Program-made: the position numbers and the translations under genes
Part shown: in pieces, positions 6,329 through 13,589 of the stretch
How the letters are laid out: every line of letters starts with the position of its first letter
How positions within the stretch are numbered: position 1 is the first letter of the stretch
Notes under the pieces: model-generated
The model's database searches: none
What the model was told of the DNA's origin: nothing
Seen by the model: only the letters and a program-made list of their open reading frames with translations
Assembly: GCF_001270745.1 (NCBI RefSeq)
Contig: NZ_LFXL01000010.1
Coordinates: 248,001 to 312,000 of the forward strand
From: Jiangella muralis
GTDB taxonomy: Bacteria > Actinomycetota > Actinomycetes > Jiangellales > Jiangellaceae
Direction: 5' to 3'
DNA: 64,000 bases

Positions 6329-7714
6329 TCAGAGGTTCCGTGCCGGCGTGCTGATCCCGGCGAGCTCGAGCATCAGGTCGCGGACGTCGGTGGCGGCCAG
6401 CTGGTCGCGGGCCGTCGACGGGTCGCTGCACAGCAGCACGGGCCCGTCGGCGGGGTCGTCGGGCAGCCGGCCGTGCGTGCCGCGGACCCACTGCCCGTCC
6501 AGCGGCACGACGTTCATCGCGTAGCGCAGCCCCAGCTTCTTCTTCGCCAGGTTCGCGCCCGCCCGCAGCTTGACCCGCGGGTCGGCGGGGTCGAGGAACA
6601 ACTCGGCCGGGTCGTAGCCGGGCTTGCGGTGGATCTCGACGCCGCGGGCGAAGTCGGGCGCACGGTCGTCGTGCAGCCAGTAGTAGTAGGTGAACCAGGC
6701 GCCGAGATCGGCGACCAGCACCAACTCGCCGGAGCGCTCGTGGTCCAGGCCGAACTCACGCTGCGCCGCCTTGTCCAGGACGAGGTCGACGCCCGGCAGG
6801 CCCTGGTAGAGCTCGCGGACGGCCTCGAGGTCGCCGGGGTCCTTCACGTAGACGTGCGCCACCTGGTGGTCGGCGACGGCGAACGCCCGCGACGCCCACG
6901 GGTCCAGGTACTCCATGCCGGCCTGCGTGTAGACGTCGAGCAGCCCGGCCTGCCGCAGCGCCCGGTTGACGTGCACCGGGCGGCTGGCCGGGCCGATGCC
7001 GTACTCGCTCAGGGCGACGACGGTGACGCCCTGGTCGCGGGCTTCGGTGAGCAGCGGCGCCAGGACGCGGTCGACGTCGCGGGCGGCGGCGACGGCCTGC
7101 GGGCTGTGCGGCCCGAACCGCTGCAGGTCGTAGTCGAGGTGCGGGACATAGGCGAGGGTGAGGTCGGCCTGTGGCATCAACCGCCGGGTGGCCTGCACGA
7201 TCCACTCGCTGGACTTGATCGACGCCGTCGGGCCCCAGTAGTTGAACAGCGGGAACTCCCCCAGCGACCGGGTCAGCTCGTCGTGCAGCGCCGGCGGCCG
7301 GGTGTAGCAGTCCGGCGACTTGCGGCCGTCGGCGTGGTAGATCGGCCGCGGCGTCACCGTCCAGTCGGTGTCGGCGCCCATCGCGTACCACCAGCACACG
7401 TTCGCGACGGTGTACCCGGGGCGTGCCTGCCGGGCGAGGTCCCACACCTTCTCGCCCTGCACGAGCCGGTTGTGCTGGCGCCACAGGAAGATCTCGCCGA
7501 GGTCGCGGAAGTACCAGCCGTTCCCGACGACGCCGTGGTCGCGCGGCATCGCGCCGGTGAGGAACGTCGACTGGACCGAGCAGGTCACCGCGGGCAGCAC
7601 CGTGCCCAGCGCCGCCTGCCAGCCGTCGCCGGCGATCGCCCGCAGGTTCGGGGTGTGCTCCAGCAGCCGCGGCGTCAGGCCCACGACGTCGAGTACCAAT
7701 AGCTTGTTGGTCAC
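6329..7714 (-). CDS. eboF: EboF-like alkaline phosphatase superfamily / nucleotide pyrophosphatase-type phosphodiesterase
   Basis: 461 residues of the type I phosphodiesterase/NPP fold. The N-terminal metal Asp lies in LLVLDVVGLTP (~D9), and the probable nucleophile Thr is in PAVTCSVQSTFLTG (~T44). The second metal site is PHLDYDLQRFGP, followed by VALSEYGIG and ADHQVAHVYV. There is no signal peptide, so it acts in the cytosol unless partnered. GTG at 7714 is the start; it overlaps the stop of the upstream eboE by 4 nt (GTGA), indicating translational coupling. In the described ebo clusters, EboF is the phosphodiesterase/pyrophosphatase member. Substrate unknown, plausibly a nucleotide- or phosphodiester-activated intermediate. 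Confidence 0.85.
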   Translation of the reverse strand: MTNKLLVLDVVGLTPRLLEHTPNLRAIAGDGWQAALGTVLPAVTCSVQSTFLTGAMPRDHGVVGNGWYFRDLGEIFLWRQHNRLVQGEKVWDLARQARPGYTVANVCWWYAMGADTDWTVTPRPIYHADGRKSPDCYTRPPALHDELTRSLGEFPLFNYWGPTASIKSSEWIVQATRRLMPQADLTLAYVPHLDYDLQRFGPHSPQAVAAARDVDRVLAPLLTEARDQGVTVVALSEYGIGPASRPVHVNRALRQAGLLDVYTQAGMEYLDPWASRAFAVADHQVAHVYVKDPGDLEAVRELYQGLPGVDLVLDKAAQREFGLDHERSGELVLVADLGAWFTYYYWLHDDRAPDFARGVEIHRKPGYDPAELFLDPADPRVKLRAGANLAKKKLGLRYAMNVVPLDGQWVRGTHGRLPDDPADGPVLLCSDPSTARDQLAATDVRDLMLELAGISTPARNL

Positions 7715-8886
7715 GAAATCTCCTCCATACCGATCTCCACCATCCGGTCCGCGACCCAGCGCAGTTCCGCCGCGAGCCCCGCCACCAGCCCGTCCGGGCC
7801 GTCCGGCCGGCGCCCCTCGGGCAGCACCGACCAGGTGTACGTCTCGACCTCCACGTGGTCGGTCACCGCCCGCGACCCGCCGAACAGCCCGCGCAGCGTC
7901 GCCGCCAGGTGCTCCTGGGTGGCGGCCAGCGGCGGCTCGGGCTGTTCGTGCACGGGCACGTGGAAGTGCACCCGCCACGGGCCGTCGCCGGGGAACGCCG
8001 CCGACGACAGCGCGACGGGCAGGTCGTCGGCGCCGACCACCTGGCCGCGGGTGCGCACCCGCGTCTGGTGCAGGAACCGGTCCTCGGCGTAGGCCGCGAG
8101 CGCCTTGCGGGAGGCCGGGTCGCCCGGGTCGGCCACTTCCAGCGCGGCCGACGCCTGCGTCTTGACGACGGGCAGCCCGGCGGCCGCGAGCGTGGCCAGG
8201 GCGTCGGACGGCTCCTCGAACTGGGTCGCCAGGTGGCAGGCGTCCAGGCAGATCCCGATGCGGTCGGTGTCGACGCCGCCGAGCTGGGCGGCCGCTTCGT
8301 CGACGGTCTCGACGACGCAGCCGGGCTCCGGCTCCAGCCCGACCCGGACCGTCCGCCCGGTGTCCGCCTCGACCTTCGCCAGGCCGTCGGCGAGCTGGCC
8401 CAGCCGCTCGGCGGCCAGCCCACGCCGGGCGTCGTCCCAGGGGGTGCGCCAGGCCAGCGGCAGGCTGGACACGCTGCCGCGGACGGCGTCGTCGGGCAGC
8501 AACGCGGCCAGCACCCGGGCGCAGTCCAGCGTGTACGCCAGCCGCTGCGACGTCAGCCAGTCCGGGTGGTAGACGCCCAGCTTGACCCGCGGGTCGTGGA
8601 AGCCCTGGTACGGGAAGGCGTTGAGCGTCACCACCTCCAGCCCGCCCGCGGCCAGCGTCGCGCGCAGCCGGTCCAGGTCGCGCCGGCCGGCGTCGGAGGC
8701 CAGCCGGGCCACGACCGGGGCCGGCAGCCACAGGCCGAGGCCCAGCCGGGACACCCCGAGCCGGGCCCGCGCGCCGGCGCCGTAGCGCGTCACCTGGTCC
8801 AGCAGCGCCTCGACGTCCTCGGTCGGGTGGACGTTCGTGCAGTACGCGAGGTGGACGACGGTGCCGTCGCGGTGCCGGAACCGCAT
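7711..8886 (-). CDS. eboE: Metabolite traffic protein EboE
   Basis: 391 residues; a xylose-isomerase-like barrel with the EboE pattern: early AYCTNVHPTEDVEALL, then LGLWLPAPV, TLNAFPYQGFHDP, VKLGVYHPDWL, ICLDACHLATQFE and HFHVPVHEQPEPPL. In cyanobacteria the ebo genes are needed for delivery of the scytonemin monomer to the periplasm; in other bacteria they accompany secondary metabolites. The precise reaction is not known. I take ATG at 8886 (4-5 nt after GGAGG) rather than the GTG at 8889; the ATG shares its A with the eboB stop (TGATG). Confidence 0.88.
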   Translation of the reverse strand: MRFRHRDGTVVHLAYCTNVHPTEDVEALLDQVTRYGAGARARLGVSRLGLGLWLPAPVVARLASDAGRRDLDRLRATLAAGGLEVVTLNAFPYQGFHDPRVKLGVYHPDWLTSQRLAYTLDCARVLAALLPDDAVRGSVSSLPLAWRTPWDDARRGLAAERLGQLADGLAKVEADTGRTVRVGLEPEPGCVVETVDEAAAQLGGVDTDRIGICLDACHLATQFEEPSDALATLAAAGLPVVKTQASAALEVADPGDPASRKALAAYAEDRFLHQTRVRTRGQVVGADDLPVALSSAAFPGDGPWRVHFHVPVHEQPEPPLAATQEHLAATLRGLFGGSRAVTDHVEVETYTWSVLPEGRRPDGPDGLVAGLAAELRWVADRMVEIGMEEIS

Positions 8887-9824
8887 CACGCCTCCGGTTG
8901 GTCGGCCGTCAGGTCGGGCCGGGCCACCGCGGAATCTGCACTCGACTCCGCGGGGTCGGGTCGCTGGCCGCGCACGATGGAATTGCCCTCGAACGTCGCC
9001 GTCCGCCCGCCCGTCCCGGCGAGGTCGACCTCGTCCAGCAGCAGCCGGCCGCTCTGCCCGTAGAACTCGACCGGGTTCTGCCAGAGGACCTTGTCGACGT
9101 CATCGGCGCCGAACTCCTCGGCGAGCATCGCCCGGCCCGTCTTCACCGTCTTCAGCGGGTCGCTGTGGCCCCAGTCGGCGGCGGAGTTGACGATCATCCG
9201 ATCCAGCCCGCGGTCGGCGAGGATGCGCACCATGCGGTGCTCGTCCATCTTGGTGTCCGGGTAGATCGAGAACCCCATCCAGCAGCCCGAGTCGGCGACC
9301 ATGCCGACGGTGGTCTCGTTGAGGTGGTCGACGAGGACGCGTTCCGGCGCCAGCCCGCTGGCCGCGACCAGTTCCAGCGTCCGCCGGGTGCCGGCCGCCT
9401 TGTCCCGGTGCGGCGTGTGCACCAGCACCGGCAGGTCGTGCTCGCCGGCCAGCTCGAGCTGCCGGACGAACACCTTCTCCTCGTCGTCGGTCATCGAGTC
9501 GAAACCCAGCTCGCCGACCGCGACGACGCCGTCCTTGGCGAGGTAGCGCGGCAGCACCTCCAGGACGCCGTGGCAGCGCGGATCGTTGGCCTCCTTCGGG
9601 TTCAGCGCGATCGTGCAGTGGTGCCGGATGCCGAACTGCGCGGCCCGGAACCGCTCCCAGCCGACCAGCGCGTCGAAGTAGTCGACGAACGAGCCGACGT
9701 TCGTGCGCGGCTGGCCGAGCCAGAACGCCGGCTCGGTGATGGCACGGACCCCGGCGGCGTACATGCGCTGGTAGTCGTCGGTGGTGCGCGAGGTCATGTG
9801 GATGTGGGGGTCGAAGATGCGCAT
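8886..9824 (-). CDS. eboB: TatD-family metal-dependent hydrolase (EboB)
   Basis: 312 residues of the amidohydrolase/TatD barrel: metal motif DPHIHM at residues 5-10, VGELGFDSM (bridging Glu), PVLVHTPHRDK, VDHLNE and the C-terminal AADWGHSDPL Asp. All catalytic ligands appear intact. The ~40-residue acidic tail after VDLAGT is disordered and may be poorly conserved. A GAGGAGG site lies inside the end of eboA, and the start is only 3 nt from the eboA stop. EboB is the TatD-like hydrolase in the described ebo clusters. Cytoplasmic; substrate unknown. Confidence 0.87.
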   Translation of the reverse strand: MRIFDPHIHMTSRTTDDYQRMYAAGVRAITEPAFWLGQPRTNVGSFVDYFDALVGWERFRAAQFGIRHHCTIALNPKEANDPRCHGVLEVLPRYLAKDGVVAVGELGFDSMTDDEEKVFVRQLELAGEHDLPVLVHTPHRDKAAGTRRTLELVAASGLAPERVLVDHLNETTVGMVADSGCWMGFSIYPDTKMDEHRMVRILADRGLDRMIVNSAADWGHSDPLKTVKTGRAMLAEEFGADDVDKVLWQNPVEFYGQSGRLLLDEVDLAGTGGRTATFEGNSIVRGQRPDPAESSADSAVARPDLTADQPEA

Positions 9825-9827
9825 CGA

Positions 9828-10493
9828 TCAGGCCTCCTCGGCGGGGACGGGGAACCGGCCGGCGACGGCCTCCGGGTGGCGGCCGAGGATGCGCCAGGCG
9901 TCGCTGGGCACCGACCGCCCGGCGGCGACGCGCTCGTTGCCGTAGTCGGCCACCATGCGGGCCAGCTCTTCGTCGGTGCGCGCGTCGAGGTCGGCGACGG
10001 CGTCCAGCGGCACGCCGACGAACAGGCACTTGAGCACGCCCTGACGCCAGGCGGCGGCGTCCAGGTGGGCCGCGGCGTACGGCCCCAGCGCGGCCGCGAC
10101 CAGCCGCATGTCGTTGGTGCGCAGCGCGTCGGCCACCAGCGGCAGCCCGGCGTCGCCGAGGTCCAGCACCGCCAGCGCCCGCAGCACCGCCCGTTTCTCC
10201 TCGGCGTCGCCGTACCGGTACAGCTGGCCGACCTCCTCCACCAGCGCGGCCCGCTCCAGCCGGGCGGCCGCGGCCACCAGCAGCGCCGCGCGGGCCTCGT
10301 CCTCCAGCCGCGGACTGCGCAGGCCGTCGGGGTCGGACGGGTTGGACGGGCCGCGGGCGACCCGCCGTCCGACCGCCGGGAACAGCACCGCGACCCGCCG
10401 GGGGTCGAGCTCGACCTCCGCCAGCAGCTCGGCCAGCCGCCCCCGAGCGGCCTCGTCCAGGTGCGGGGTGGTCCGATCGATCGTCGCGCTCAT
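9828..10493 (-). CDS. eboA: EboA-domain protein
   Basis: 221 residues, predominantly alpha-helical and Ala/Leu/Arg-rich, resembling a short HEAT-like repeat stack: ARAALLVAAAARL, EEVGQLYRYGDAEEKRAVLRAL, PLVADALRTNDMRLV, and the distinctive LKCLFVGVPLDAVADL plus MVADYGNERVAAGR of EboA proteins. No catalytic motif or membrane segment is visible, so it could be a scaffold. ATG at 10493 overlaps the stop of the upstream epimerase-like gene (ATGA). No function has been established for EboA; the call rests on motif pattern and on the surrounding eboB, eboC, eboE and eboF genes. Confidence 0.82.
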   Translation of the reverse strand: MSATIDRTTPHLDEAARGRLAELLAEVELDPRRVAVLFPAVGRRVARGPSNPSDPDGLRSPRLEDEARAALLVAAAARLERAALVEEVGQLYRYGDAEEKRAVLRALAVLDLGDAGLPLVADALRTNDMRLVAAALGPYAAAHLDAAAWRQGVLKCLFVGVPLDAVADLDARTDEELARMVADYGNERVAAGRSVPSDAWRILGRHPEAVAGRFPVPAEEA

Positions 10494-11407
10494 GGCAGTC
10501 CTTCCTCTTCGTCGGGCTGTCGCAATGCGCCGGCCCTCCCCCGCTCGCCCCCGTGTCCCATGGCGGCCAGGGCCTGCGCCTCGGCAGCTTGCAGCGCCTC
10601 CAGCGAACGGCGCGCGACGACGGGCGCGGCGTGCCCGTGCCGCGGCAGTTCGACGGCGGCCAGCCCGCCGTAGCCCACCTCCAGCAGCGCGCCCAGCGCC
10701 GCCGGCAGGTCGACCTCGCCCTCGCCGAACTCCAGGTGCTCGTGCACGCCCTCGACCATGTCGTCGAGCTGCACGTTCGCCAGCAGGCTGCCGGCCTGGC
10801 GGACGCAGTCGGCGACGGTGCCCGCCTCGTTCGCGACGACGTGCCCGATGTCGAGCGTGACCCGCAGCCGCTCCGGGTCGCCGAGCCGTTTGCGCAGCTC
10901 GAGCACGCCGCCGACGGTGTCGATGAACATCCCGGGCTCCGGCTCGAACGCGCATTCCAGGTCGCGTCGCTCCGCCTCCTCCAGGACCGCCGCGACGCCG
11001 GACGTGACCCGCCGCCAGCCCTCGTCGGTGCTCACCCCGTCGGGCAGCGTGCCGGACCAGAACGACACCGCCTCGGCGCCCAGTTCGGCGCCGATCCGGA
11101 CCGCCCGGCACAGCAGGTCGACCCGCCGCTCCCGCCCGCTGTCCGAGACCAGGTTCGGCTCGTGCTTGCGCCACGGGTCCAGCACGTACCGCGCGCCGGT
11201 CTCGATGACGACGGCGAGGCCCAGCTCGTCCAGCCGCCGCCCGACCGCGACGGTGCGCGCGGACAGGTCCGGCCCGAACGGATCCAGGTGCGGGTGGTCG
11301 ACGGTGAGGGCGACGCCGTCGTAGCCGAGGCCGGCGATGACGCCGAGCGCGTCGTCCAGCCGGTGGCTGCCGAACCCGTTCGTCCCGTATCCGAACCGGA
11401 GGCTCAT
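10490..11407 (-). CDS. Sugar phosphate isomerase/epimerase-like protein of the ebo operon
   Basis: 305 residues, xylose-isomerase-like TIM barrel. It begins FGYGTNGFGSHRLDDAL, with an ELGLAVVIETGAR strand, a CAFEPEPGMFIDTVGG loop (metal Glu), LDIGHVVANEAG (Asp/His), VQLDDMVEGVHEH and AVELPRHGH. The E...D/H...H/E arrangement suggests a functional metal site. The last ~25 residues are a basic, probably disordered tail. It overlaps eboC upstream and eboA downstream by 4 nt each, so it is an integral member of this operon although it is not one of the six classical ebo genes. Distinct in sequence from EboE and from the other barrel proteins in the window. Confidence 0.83.
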   Translation of the reverse strand: MSLRFGYGTNGFGSHRLDDALGVIAGLGYDGVALTVDHPHLDPFGPDLSARTVAVGRRLDELGLAVVIETGARYVLDPWRKHEPNLVSDSGRERRVDLLCRAVRIGAELGAEAVSFWSGTLPDGVSTDEGWRRVTSGVAAVLEEAERRDLECAFEPEPGMFIDTVGGVLELRKRLGDPERLRVTLDIGHVVANEAGTVADCVRQAGSLLANVQLDDMVEGVHEHLEFGEGEVDLPAALGALLEVGYGGLAAVELPRHGHAAPVVARRSLEALQAAEAQALAAMGHGGERGRAGALRQPDEEEGLP

Positions 11408-12435
11408 GTCGGCGACACCACCTTCGACAGCGCCCGCACGGCCGGCCCGATGCCGACGACCGCCGCGGCCAGCGCCACCGCGCCCGCCTTCGCCAGCAGC
11501 GCCGACTGCAACGGGATCACGCCGCGCACGCCGGCTCCGGTCGCCGACCGCACGGTCGCCGCGTCCGGCGTCCGGGCCGCATCCAGCTGCGCCTTCCCGA
11601 CGGTCGCCGCATACAGCCCCGCGAACCCGGCCGCCGCCAGCCCGTTGGCCGGCGAAGCCCCAGGCCGGAGAGGGTGTCCACCGCGCTGGAGGTCTGCGGT
11701 CGGATACGACGGCAGACCTCCATCGCGCGATGGGGCTCTGCCGTCGTATCCGACGGCAGACCTCCAGCGACGAGAGCGGTCTCCGGCGGCGCCCCGCGAA
11801 CCGGCCGCGCCCGGCGAGGCCACAGACCGGAGCGGCAGCGGCACGGCGGCCGCCATCGACGCGGCCACCGTCGCGCCGAGGGCGACCCGGGCCGAGGATG
11901 GCGAGGCGCCGTGCACCTCGCCGCGGCTGAGCACCGTCACGCCGACGGTGTGCGTGGCGACGGCGAGAGCGGGCAGCGCCGCCGCCCGCTCCCGTCCGCC
12001 CGCGCCCAGCAGCACGTCCAGTCCGCGGGCCGCGCCCATCGCGAGCGGGCCGGCCGGCGTCGCCTTGGCGACCAGGTCGTACGTCCACACGGCCGCGGCC
12101 AGCGGGACCGCGACCCGCAGCGCCCGCCGTCCGCCGGCCGCCGCCGCCAGCCCGAGGCCGGCGACGGTGAGCCCGGTGGCGATGCCCAGCGCCTCACCCG
12201 GCGTCACCCGTCCGGACGGGATCGGCCGCTCCGGCCGCTCGACGCGGTCGAGGTCGCGGTCGGCGTAGTCGTTCAGGGCCATGCCGGCCCAGTACAGGCA
12301 GGCCGAGGCCAGCGGCGTGACCGCGGTCCGGGCCCCGTACGGGAACCCGGCCGCGGCCGCGCCGGCCAGCGAGTCGCCCGGCACGGTCAGCGCCGCGGGC
12401 GCCCGCACCAGTTCGGCGACGTCGCGCAGCCTCAT
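11404..12435 (-). CDS. eboC: UbiA-family prenyltransferase EboC, carrying an in-frame palindromic insertion
   Basis: 343 residues, integral membrane. The UbiA Mg-pyrophosphate motif NDYADRDLDRVERPERPIP (55-73) is intact, as is the YDLVAKATPAGPLAMGAARG second-motif region (119-138). Helices are recognisable at ~35-55, 83-100, 107-121, 150-170, 187-200, 267-280 and 310-332. Between helices at ~204-265 there is a hydrophilic, Arg/Gly/Ser-rich stretch. Residues 223-250 of it are encoded by an 82-bp palindromic element, making the protein about 50 residues longer than I expect for EboC. The insertion keeps the frame. EboC presumably attaches or handles a prenyl group on the ebo metabolite. Both ends overlap neighbours by 4 nt. 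Confidence 0.85.
   Translation of the reverse strand: MRLRDVAELVRAPAALTVPGDSLAGAAAAGFPYGARTAVTPLASACLYWAGMALNDYADRDLDRVERPERPIPSGRVTPGEALGIATGLTVAGLGLAAAAGGRRALRVAVPLAAAVWTYDLVAKATPAGPLAMGAARGLDVLLGAGGRERAAALPALAVATHTVGVTVLSRGEVHGASPSSARVALGATVAASMAAAVPLPLRSVASPGAAGSRGAAGDRSRRWRSAVGYDGRAPSRDGGLPSYPTADLQRGGHPLRPGASPANGLAAAGFAGLYAATVGKAQLDAARTPDAATVRSATGAGVRGVIPLQSALLAKAGAVALAAAVVGIGPAVRALSKVVSPT
11686..11767. repeat. 82-bp palindromic element inside eboC
   Basis: Arms 11686-11715 and 11738-11767 are 30-bp reverse complements with one mismatch (CTGGAGGTCTGC-C/G-GTCGG...). The spacer contains a further perfect 12-bp palindrome, CATCGCGCGATG, at 11721-11732. It encodes residues ~223-250 of EboC in frame. 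It is the kind of compact palindromic repeat that is normally intergenic. Confidence 0.88.
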
Positions 12436-13589
12436 GTCGTGCCCCGGCCGGCCCGGTCGCACCACGACGCCAGCGCGTCCCACTGGGTGCTCAGCGCGTG
12501 CACGTCGCTGGCGGCCGGATCCTTGAAGAAGAACCCGAGCTGCGGCATCGGCCCGGACTCGCCCAGCTCGTGCGCCCGCGCGACCAGCCGGACGAGGTCC
12601 AGCACCAGCGGCGCGGCGAGCGACGAGTCGCAGCCGGACCAGGTGAACTGCATGGACATCCGGGTGCCGAGGAAGCCCTCGAACGACACCAGGTCCCAGG
12701 CGGTCTTCCAGTCGCCGAGGTCGGGCACGTAGTCGATGTGCAGCGGCCCGTCGACCGGGTGGCCGAGGATCGACTCCAGGCCGTTGGCCTTGGTGGCGAT
12801 CTTGCTGGCCGCGTTGGTCGGATCGGCCAGCGTCTGGCCGTCGCCGCCGCCCAGCAGGTTGACCGACGACCACGACCGCACCCTCAGCGCGCGCATCGCG
12901 AACATCGGCCCGAGCACTGTCTTGACCAGTGTCTCGCCGGTCTTGGCGTCCGAGCCGGCCCACGGGACGCCGCGGTCCAGGGCCAGCTCCTCCAGCGCCG
13001 GGACCCGCGGCCCCGGGCTCGGGGTGAACGCGACGTACGCGCAGCCGGCCCGGAACGCCGCGTACGCGTACAGCGAGCTGCCCGGCAGCGGCGCCTCGCC
13101 CGCGTCCAGCGCCGCCTCCAGCGCGGCGGCCGTCGCCAGCGCGGGGACGTCGCCGTCGACCGGCGGCTCGGTGCTGGAGACGTCGACGACGACCACGCGG
13201 TCCAGGCCGTGCTCGTCACGGAACGCGCGCAGCTCGGCCTCGACCCGCTCCGCCGCCGCGCGCTGCGTGCCCTGCCCGGCGACGACGCCGGGCCGGATCC
13301 GCTCGTCGGCCGCGGCGAGGTCACCGGCCAGGACGGTGGCCAGCGCGGGCGGGAACACTCCGCCCGCGCTCAGCTCCTCGGCCCGCTTGCCCAGCGTGCC
13401 CTCGGCGACCTCGTGGCCGCCGACGACGATGCCGTCCAGCGCCGGCAGTCCGGCCGCCGCGACCTCCGGCAGCTCCGACACCATGCCCGTGTGTCCGGCC
13501 AGCCGGGACCGGATCGCCAGCAGCCCGACGGTCGTCGTCGTCGCCACGGAGCCGCGGGCGCCGACGAACCAGATGCCGACCCCGCTCAT
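12432..13589 (-). CDS. Inositol-3-phosphate synthase family protein
   Basis: 385 residues. The N-terminal Rossmann motif VGARGSVATTTTVG (9-22) binds NAD. The MIPS landmarks follow: SDAKTGETLVKT (catalytic Lys region, ~222), WSSVNLLGGGDGQTL (~247), IDYVPDLGDWKTAWD (~293) and the GTRMSMQFTWSGCDSSLAAP tail. Known family members convert glucose-6-phosphate to inositol-3-phosphate by an oxidation/aldol/reduction cycle. The start ATG overlaps the stop of a small upstream frame and has a GAGGGAGG site. It sits where a cyclase-like EboD (3-dehydroquinate-synthase type) would be expected in an ebo operon; no EboD is seen in this window. It may make a cyclitol for the ebo product rather than housekeeping inositol. 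Confidence 0.87.
   Translation of the reverse strand: MSGVGIWFVGARGSVATTTTVGLLAIRSRLAGHTGMVSELPEVAAAGLPALDGIVVGGHEVAEGTLGKRAEELSAGGVFPPALATVLAGDLAAADERIRPGVVAGQGTQRAAAERVEAELRAFRDEHGLDRVVVVDVSSTEPPVDGDVPALATAAALEAALDAGEAPLPGSSLYAYAAFRAGCAYVAFTPSPGPRVPALEELALDRGVPWAGSDAKTGETLVKTVLGPMFAMRALRVRSWSSVNLLGGGDGQTLADPTNAASKIATKANGLESILGHPVDGPLHIDYVPDLGDWKTAWDLVSFEGFLGTRMSMQFTWSGCDSSLAAPLVLDLVRLVARAHELGESGPMPQLGFFFKDPAASDVHALSTQWDALASWCDRAGRGTT

Follow-up and report, generated by a model that had tools for sequence, protein, structure and literature searches.

Palindromes that lie in frame within protein-coding genes are said to have been described in Rickettsia by Ogata in 2000 and 2002, in the papers that originally reported RPEs, the later of which reportedly called protein-coding palindromes unique to Rickettsia in its title. 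RPEs are dispersed palindromic repeats of that genus that occupy intergenic sites as well as in-frame sites within many unrelated genes, according to the accessible part of PMC10969869. The short hairpins known as REPs (GTAG and CGTC families) occur singly, as dimers or in clusters, mostly between genes but also in open reading frames of several bacteria; the portions of PMC3733652 at hand suggest that intragenic REPs sit in flexible linkers or loops and describe different REPs at about one site of Xanthomonas recB. Among miniature inverted-repeat elements, QMITE1 and QMITE2 of Coxiella burnetii can extend proteins by residues in frame (PMC5896051, in excerpt). The mitochondrial genes of Nematomorpha contain palindromes with both arms coding, which are perfect and described as actively maintained (PMC6649704, in excerpt). 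The kind of element treated here is therefore already known, since RPEs and intragenic REPs have been described (PMC10969869 and PMC3733652, each as far as its accessible part goes). A literature search, with most subscription papers outside its scope, listed no account of comparable elements in Jiangella or within the coding sequence of actinobacteria. To the extent of these searches, neither the repeat family nor its occurrence in this phylum has been reported before, and the sharing of one loop by two families is likewise new.

The window is a stretch of 64,000 nucleotides from Jiangella muralis, whose genome (7.27 Mb in 76 contigs) is referred to as G000; G001 to G011 are other Jiangella species and G018 belongs to another genus of the same family. 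The host gene (11404..12435, minus strand, ATG start, 343 aa) encodes an SCO3242-family (EboC-like) UbiA prenyltransferase according to profile models, and the closest named homologues of its product are from Jiangella. The best model is NF045897, the SCO3242-family prenyltransferase, which the protein passes with 375 bits against a cut-off of 260, while it fails NF035940 (EboC) with 134 bits against 250. The match spans 339 aa on a model of 287 positions, in line with an earlier remark that the protein is about 50 residues longer than expected. All neighbours lie on the minus strand. Upstream is a myo-inositol-1-phosphate synthase-like gene (12432..13589), whose 3' end overlaps the start of the host gene by 4 nt; downstream are a xylose-isomerase-like TIM barrel (10490..11407), an EboA-domain protein (9828..10514, start approximate; 172 bits, cut-off 50), a TatD-like hydrolase (8886..9824; 39 bits, below the model cut-off, and putatively EboB by its position) and EboE (7711..8889; 406 bits, cut-off 250). 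Since both EboE and the EboA-domain protein score above their cut-offs, we regard this as an ebo-type cluster. Within the prenyltransferase, a dispersed Jiangella repeat has very probably been inserted in frame in a loop, where it is tolerated while the peptide that it encodes drifts near-neutrally.

The element, which we call family 1, is a double hairpin of 86 bp (11684..11769, no strand assigned) that codes for residues 223-251 on the minus strand and is repeated elsewhere in the genome. It forms a near-perfect palindrome, with arms of 43 nt each (11684-11726 and 11727-11769) that are 93% complementary and have no spacer, and each arm also folds on itself as a hairpin of ~42 bp; the inverted-repeat analysis places the two 42-bp units at 11684..11725 (repeat I2) and 11728..11769 (repeat I4), neither with a strand. 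A central perfect palindrome of 14 bp, CCATCGCGCGATGG, likewise without strand (11720..11733), joins both units. The original prediction of a 30-bp inverted repeat with an internal 12-bp palindrome at 11686-11767 had thus picked out a real structure and drawn it too short; it was also right that the repeat is coding and in frame, although the span is not residues 223-250 and the protein falls below the cut-off for EboC, the name that it had been given. The fold of the 86-bp element is far stronger than that of shuffled sequences, both as RNA (z = -10.0) and as DNA (z = -9.6), with 0 of 200 shuffles as good in either case. A scan of the window for the hairpin pattern, allowing up to 3 mismatches, gave two occurrences, both in the element, against an expectation of 0.00, and an Rfam search of five family-1 loci gave no match up to E 0.1. 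Units of the family end in CGCTGG and CCAGCG, the former adjoined by a weakly conserved outer flank, GGWCCGTTCGGC, and in other copies columns 40 and 47 of the double unit, at the centre of the palindrome, covary. The consensus of the 42-bp hairpin has no stop in any of the three forward frames, and those coding copies that we read use two of the three.

Family 1 is dispersed through the genome of the window, where it is found at 12 further places with 79-93% identity, as 86-bp doubles, as single 42-bp hairpins (C4:363575 and C30:30187) and as short arrays. At the majority of these places no coding frame runs through the copy by codon statistics. This search for genome-wide copies had been proposed as a check, and it supports the original reading. 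Among 60 relatives, which include 12 Jiangella genomes, matches to family 1 at E ≤ 0.001 were found in seven genomes among the matches listed, all of them Jiangella and one (G007) weak; the other five Jiangella genomes gave none at that threshold among the matches listed. The same seven genomes, all Jiangella, were the ones to match among 393 genomes of the class, with two candidates per genome scored. As far as searched, family 1 therefore appears to be restricted to the genus. Phage and plasmid records gave 0 matches each and the exact family-1 pattern was not found in viral contigs, and spread by phage or plasmid was ruled out on these absences. An unsystematic look for an autonomous partner revealed, among the matches listed, no pair of family-1 copies flanking a gene.

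Our collection of the family comprises at least 62 loci, 13 in G000 and 49 in five other species (76 merged places). Ten of them lie in real genes, as judged from codon statistics together with a homologue alignment or a Pfam match: six in this prenyltransferase, one in an abhydrolase (G000), two in an MFS transporter (G002 and G011) and one in a kinase (G009). The remaining loci look intergenic or are not assignable, and one copy (L004), whose long open frame adjoins a run of N, was excluded from the coding count. Three loci of G011 (L190, L193 and L196) are short tandem arrays of family-1 hairpins with a spacing of about 41-48 bp. The centre of the family is often AACGCGCGTT in G001 and G011 and mostly ATCGCGCGAT in the other species, variants that look as if the family had changed lineage by lineage.

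In kind and by description family 1 resembles the RPEs, both being genus-specific dispersed palindromes with intergenic and in-frame copies. The two differ in that the host here is a high-G+C actinobacterium and not obligate intracellular, in size (about 150 bp for an RPE, by the partial source, as opposed to a 42-bp hairpin or an 86-bp double), in that most sampled family-1 copies lie outside recognisable genes, and in the presence of an unrelated second family in the same loop. From GTAG and CGTC REPs family 1 departs as well: no GTAG or CGTC tag emerges from counts over 118 ends, and its stem is ~18 bp, as against 5-13 or 8-9 bp given for REPs in the accessible text. The Y1/RAYT transposase associated with GTAG-type REPs was sought as Y1_Tnp (PF01797) and found in 0 of 12 Jiangella genomes, the control search being positive in 5 of 14 named genomes, and a RAYT origin is thereby ruled out. 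Because tag, stem and transposase all differ, family 1 is not a GTAG or CGTC REP. Like MITEs it has terminal inverted repeats, the whole element being an inverted repeat, but unlike QMITE1, QMITE2 and other MITEs it is almost fully palindromic, and no target-site duplication is evident at the one clean empty site, where the ends of the insert are ambiguous. The Nematomorpha palindromes, as far as the excerpt describes them, are organellar and perfect, whereas those studied here are bacterial, imperfect and dispersed. Our analysis extends the known systems to a high-G+C actinobacterium, in which two unrelated repeat families and several host genes are involved and 12 species could be compared.

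The prenyltransferase gene is present in all 12 Jiangella genomes, with the G002 copy split over two contigs, and family 1 occupies its loop in six (G000, G001, G002, G008, G009 and G011). These six copies align without gaps over 86 nt in an identical reading frame, from RW[RS][SA]AV to TAxLQ; G005, G007 and G010 have short loops. The insert is absent from relatives: family 1 was found, among the matches listed, in 0 of 6 homologues from other genera of the family, and in 0 of 61 homologues of a wide scan that included three from Jiangella, one of which, J. asiatica, carries family 2. A comparison of homologous loops, also proposed beforehand, thus separates six Jiangella species with the palindrome from six without it, and the identical loop in unrelated genera that had been named as the mark of an ancestral segment did not turn up in the wide scan. 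We accordingly give almost no credence to the reading that the prenyltransferase had this loop ancestrally and that its likeness to a repeat is only apparent; a few other homologues do have longer loops without the repeat, but the two zero counts and the recurrence of the same DNA across the genome speak against it. The insert looks like tolerated selfish DNA and not like an ancestral part of the protein, as far as these alignments can tell.

In a tree of the gene and its neighbours with the loop removed (14 rows, 3527 columns), the six family-1 species do not group together, and a single clade of them is ruled out (AU p = 0.0004). Four changes are needed on this tree, a count that predates the recognition of a family-2-like hairpin in G018, which was coded as having neither family; the placement of G005 is weakly supported, and G004 is nested among family-1 species. 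Between species the in-gene copies are alike at a mean of 64-70 of 86 positions, compared with 63-70 against the non-eboC copies of other species. When like-for-like units are compared (G008 has no comparable unit), the best copy of the same genome is closer than the best orthologue in three of five species (G000, G002 and G011) and not in G001 or G009. Since copies are no closer between orthologues, repeated insertion or gene conversion fits as well as single descent, and either one old gain with losses or several gains may have occurred in this gene.

The unit that moved may have been larger than the palindrome. A stretch of coding flank 3' of it (11645..11683, minus strand) is recognised by a profile and is similar in the prenyltransferase copies of all six species (five being seeds of the profile and the sixth, L164, found by it) and in a few other copies, which is why we consider a longer inserted unit. 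That all six share this flank also speaks for a single gain in the prenyltransferase gene. One copy elsewhere in G002 (L170:1085-1272, C400) matches the insert in the same genome's prenyltransferase over 188 bp at 90%, flanks included, and over its last ~130 bp at about 96%; there, what moved or was copied extended beyond the palindrome. The repeat would have travelled as DNA.

Family 1 is also inserted in frame in other proteins. The abhydrolase of G000 carries an insert of 25 aa, or 75 bp, around a single 42-bp hairpin, RWRSAVGNDRRPPAR; the gene occurs in 7 of 12 genomes, and the insert is absent from all six aligned orthologues. It provides the one clean empty site, at which no target-site duplication is evident and the ends of the 75-bp insert are ambiguous. 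In the MFS transporter, hairpins are found in 2 of 10 species aligned, all in one loop, with four in G002 (L182:494-787, C272) at an exact spacing of 84 bp and two in G011; G008 has a long unrelated loop there. The G002 copies make up an in-frame tandem array of palindromes. In G009 a kinase carries a double unit within the linker that precedes its membrane helix, and the orthologues in G010, G004 and G001 are without this unit. Seven kinase matches were obtained and five aligned, G008 and a partial G005 being left out; a run of N interrupts the row for G000, a genome that gave no family-1 match at the corresponding place.

We propose that a family-1 copy entered the loop between two membrane helices of the prenyltransferase in frame, either once in an ancestor or several times. 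As the consensus is open in three frames, a copy with a total length divisible by three can be translated into a short hydrophilic peptide. That peptide evolves near-neutrally: the pN/pS of the element in its real frame is 0.89 over the six copies, compared with 0.20 and 0.18 in two blocks elsewhere in the gene (five and six species), and selection on the inserted peptide is ruled out by this value. The real frame is open in all six species, and each of the other forward frames has a stop in one species. Both results agree with the original suggestion that the palindrome was tolerated as coding sequence with the frame preserved, and nothing beyond the open frame is kept. The ribosome would read through the insert in the normal way. 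Bypassing of the insert by the ribosome has a precedent in the bypassed palindromes of yeast mitochondria, mentioned in the accessible part of PMC6649704, but would not require the frame to stay open, as it does in all six species; we consider it extremely unlikely.

An AlphaFold model of the protein built from an alignment of 19 rows (mean pLDDT 84.9) has helices at residues 179-197 and 262-288 and no secondary structure in residues 198-261, with all block means below 60 between residues 201 and 260; as the insert is present in none of the other rows of the alignment, a low score there is partly to be expected. The inserted loop is thus predicted to be disordered between two membrane helices. 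From the topology of UbiA enzymes we take it that the aspartate motifs and the active site are on the opposite side from this loop. Insertion would be tolerated because the loop is predicted to be disordered and, on this assumed topology, remote from the active site, and the enzyme with the insert presumably works. A near-neutral peptide beside constrained membrane helices, together with repeated arrivals in one loop, amounts to a natural experiment in the conversion of selfish DNA to protein sequence.

The loop has also received a second, unrelated repeat. In G004 it holds an element of 69 bp with 11-bp ends, GGGATGCCGTC, which belongs to a family (family 2) with copies in 11 of 12 Jiangella genomes. 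A related copy lies in the loop of G006 and, in opposite orientation, in that of G003, and the loop of G018 has a weaker but significant family-2 match of 38 nt (84%, E 2e-8) with a perfect stem of 24 bp. Family 2 was found in 22 of 393 genomes of the class: 11 Jiangella, five others in the family and six more distant, these six matches covering only 23-38 nt of the core. Across the bacterial family, 10 of 18 homologues (12 Jiangella and six others) hold a dispersed palindrome of one or other family in the loop, and eight (three Jiangella and five others) have neither. By parsimony this would take at least three insertions, and fewer suffice given enough losses. The loop can be viewed as a permissive landing site because an unrelated hairpin repeat sits there in other species.

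Family 2 has a conserved apex around GAGCGAGGAACGAGCGAGG (L199-L208 and L244-L263) and, in most cases, a site-specific, nearly complementary outer stem. Among the 27 distinct copies outside this gene (30 rows less the in-gene copy and duplicates), 25 sit within outer stems of 10-17 bp with one mismatch allowed, compared with a control mean of 1.2 bp, and these stems differ from site to site. Either family 2 inserts into terminators or hairpins, or an inverted duplicate of the flanking sequence arises as it inserts. This raises the question of whether such elements target palindromic or hairpin DNA, so that a first insertion makes the next likelier and the hot spot reflects choice of target and not only tolerance of the protein. 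The outer stems point in this direction, as do REPs inside palindromes, described in the available portion of PMC3733652, and the case of G004, which has family 2 in its loop while nested among family-1 species on the tree. However, stems in the three empty Jiangella loops are 7-9 bp long, so that a long pre-existing palindrome is hard to see, and the two empty-site comparisons for family 2, of G010 with G004 and with G000, are too divergent to show the junction. We therefore hold target choice to be unlikely, if worth keeping in mind, and the permissive loop remains our preferred explanation of the hot spot. The richest genome in family 2 is G010, with 26 matches.

The palindrome itself has been better kept than its translation. 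The six in-gene copies keep 33-40 of 43 pairs while differing from one another at 14-31% of sites, and some process must therefore keep the palindrome. In 29 double units, taken from 60 loci by a procedure that misses units with indels, covariation for the long hairpin of 41 pairs is 0.123, which 0 of 500 shuffles reach, and for two separate hairpins 0.076, which 10 of 500 reach; both scores are counted over all copies, mostly outside this gene, and are inflated by the relatedness of the rows. Judged on these alignments, the family appears to be kept better as a DNA palindrome than as a peptide.

One might then ask if the hairpin persists because it plays a part in the ebo mRNA, where it could slow ribosomes, block or mark a site for RNase or set the ratio of upstream to downstream products, the unrelated hairpins being convergent gains. 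Such a role would account for the ten occupied loops among 18 homologues, for the four family-2 cases, in which the coding stem is perfect over 16-24 bp and differs in sequence between species, and for the retained pairs and the long-hairpin covariation. Against it stand the eight homologues with neither family, the G011 insert, whose longest perfect stem of 9 bp is no longer than in codon shuffles, and the origin of the covariation signal, mostly from copies outside the gene and swollen by relatedness. We regard an mRNA function as improbable, and slightly more so the combined case of a recurrent landing pad whose hairpin elements are kept because they are useful in the ebo mRNA, in which case parasites would be supplying a regulatory part from inside coding sequence. 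Tolerated insertion with near-neutral drift accounts better for the loop as we find it. The loop of G011 (L053) also holds an in-frame tandem repeat, HPALSAV, which may be another sign of a loop that is free to grow.
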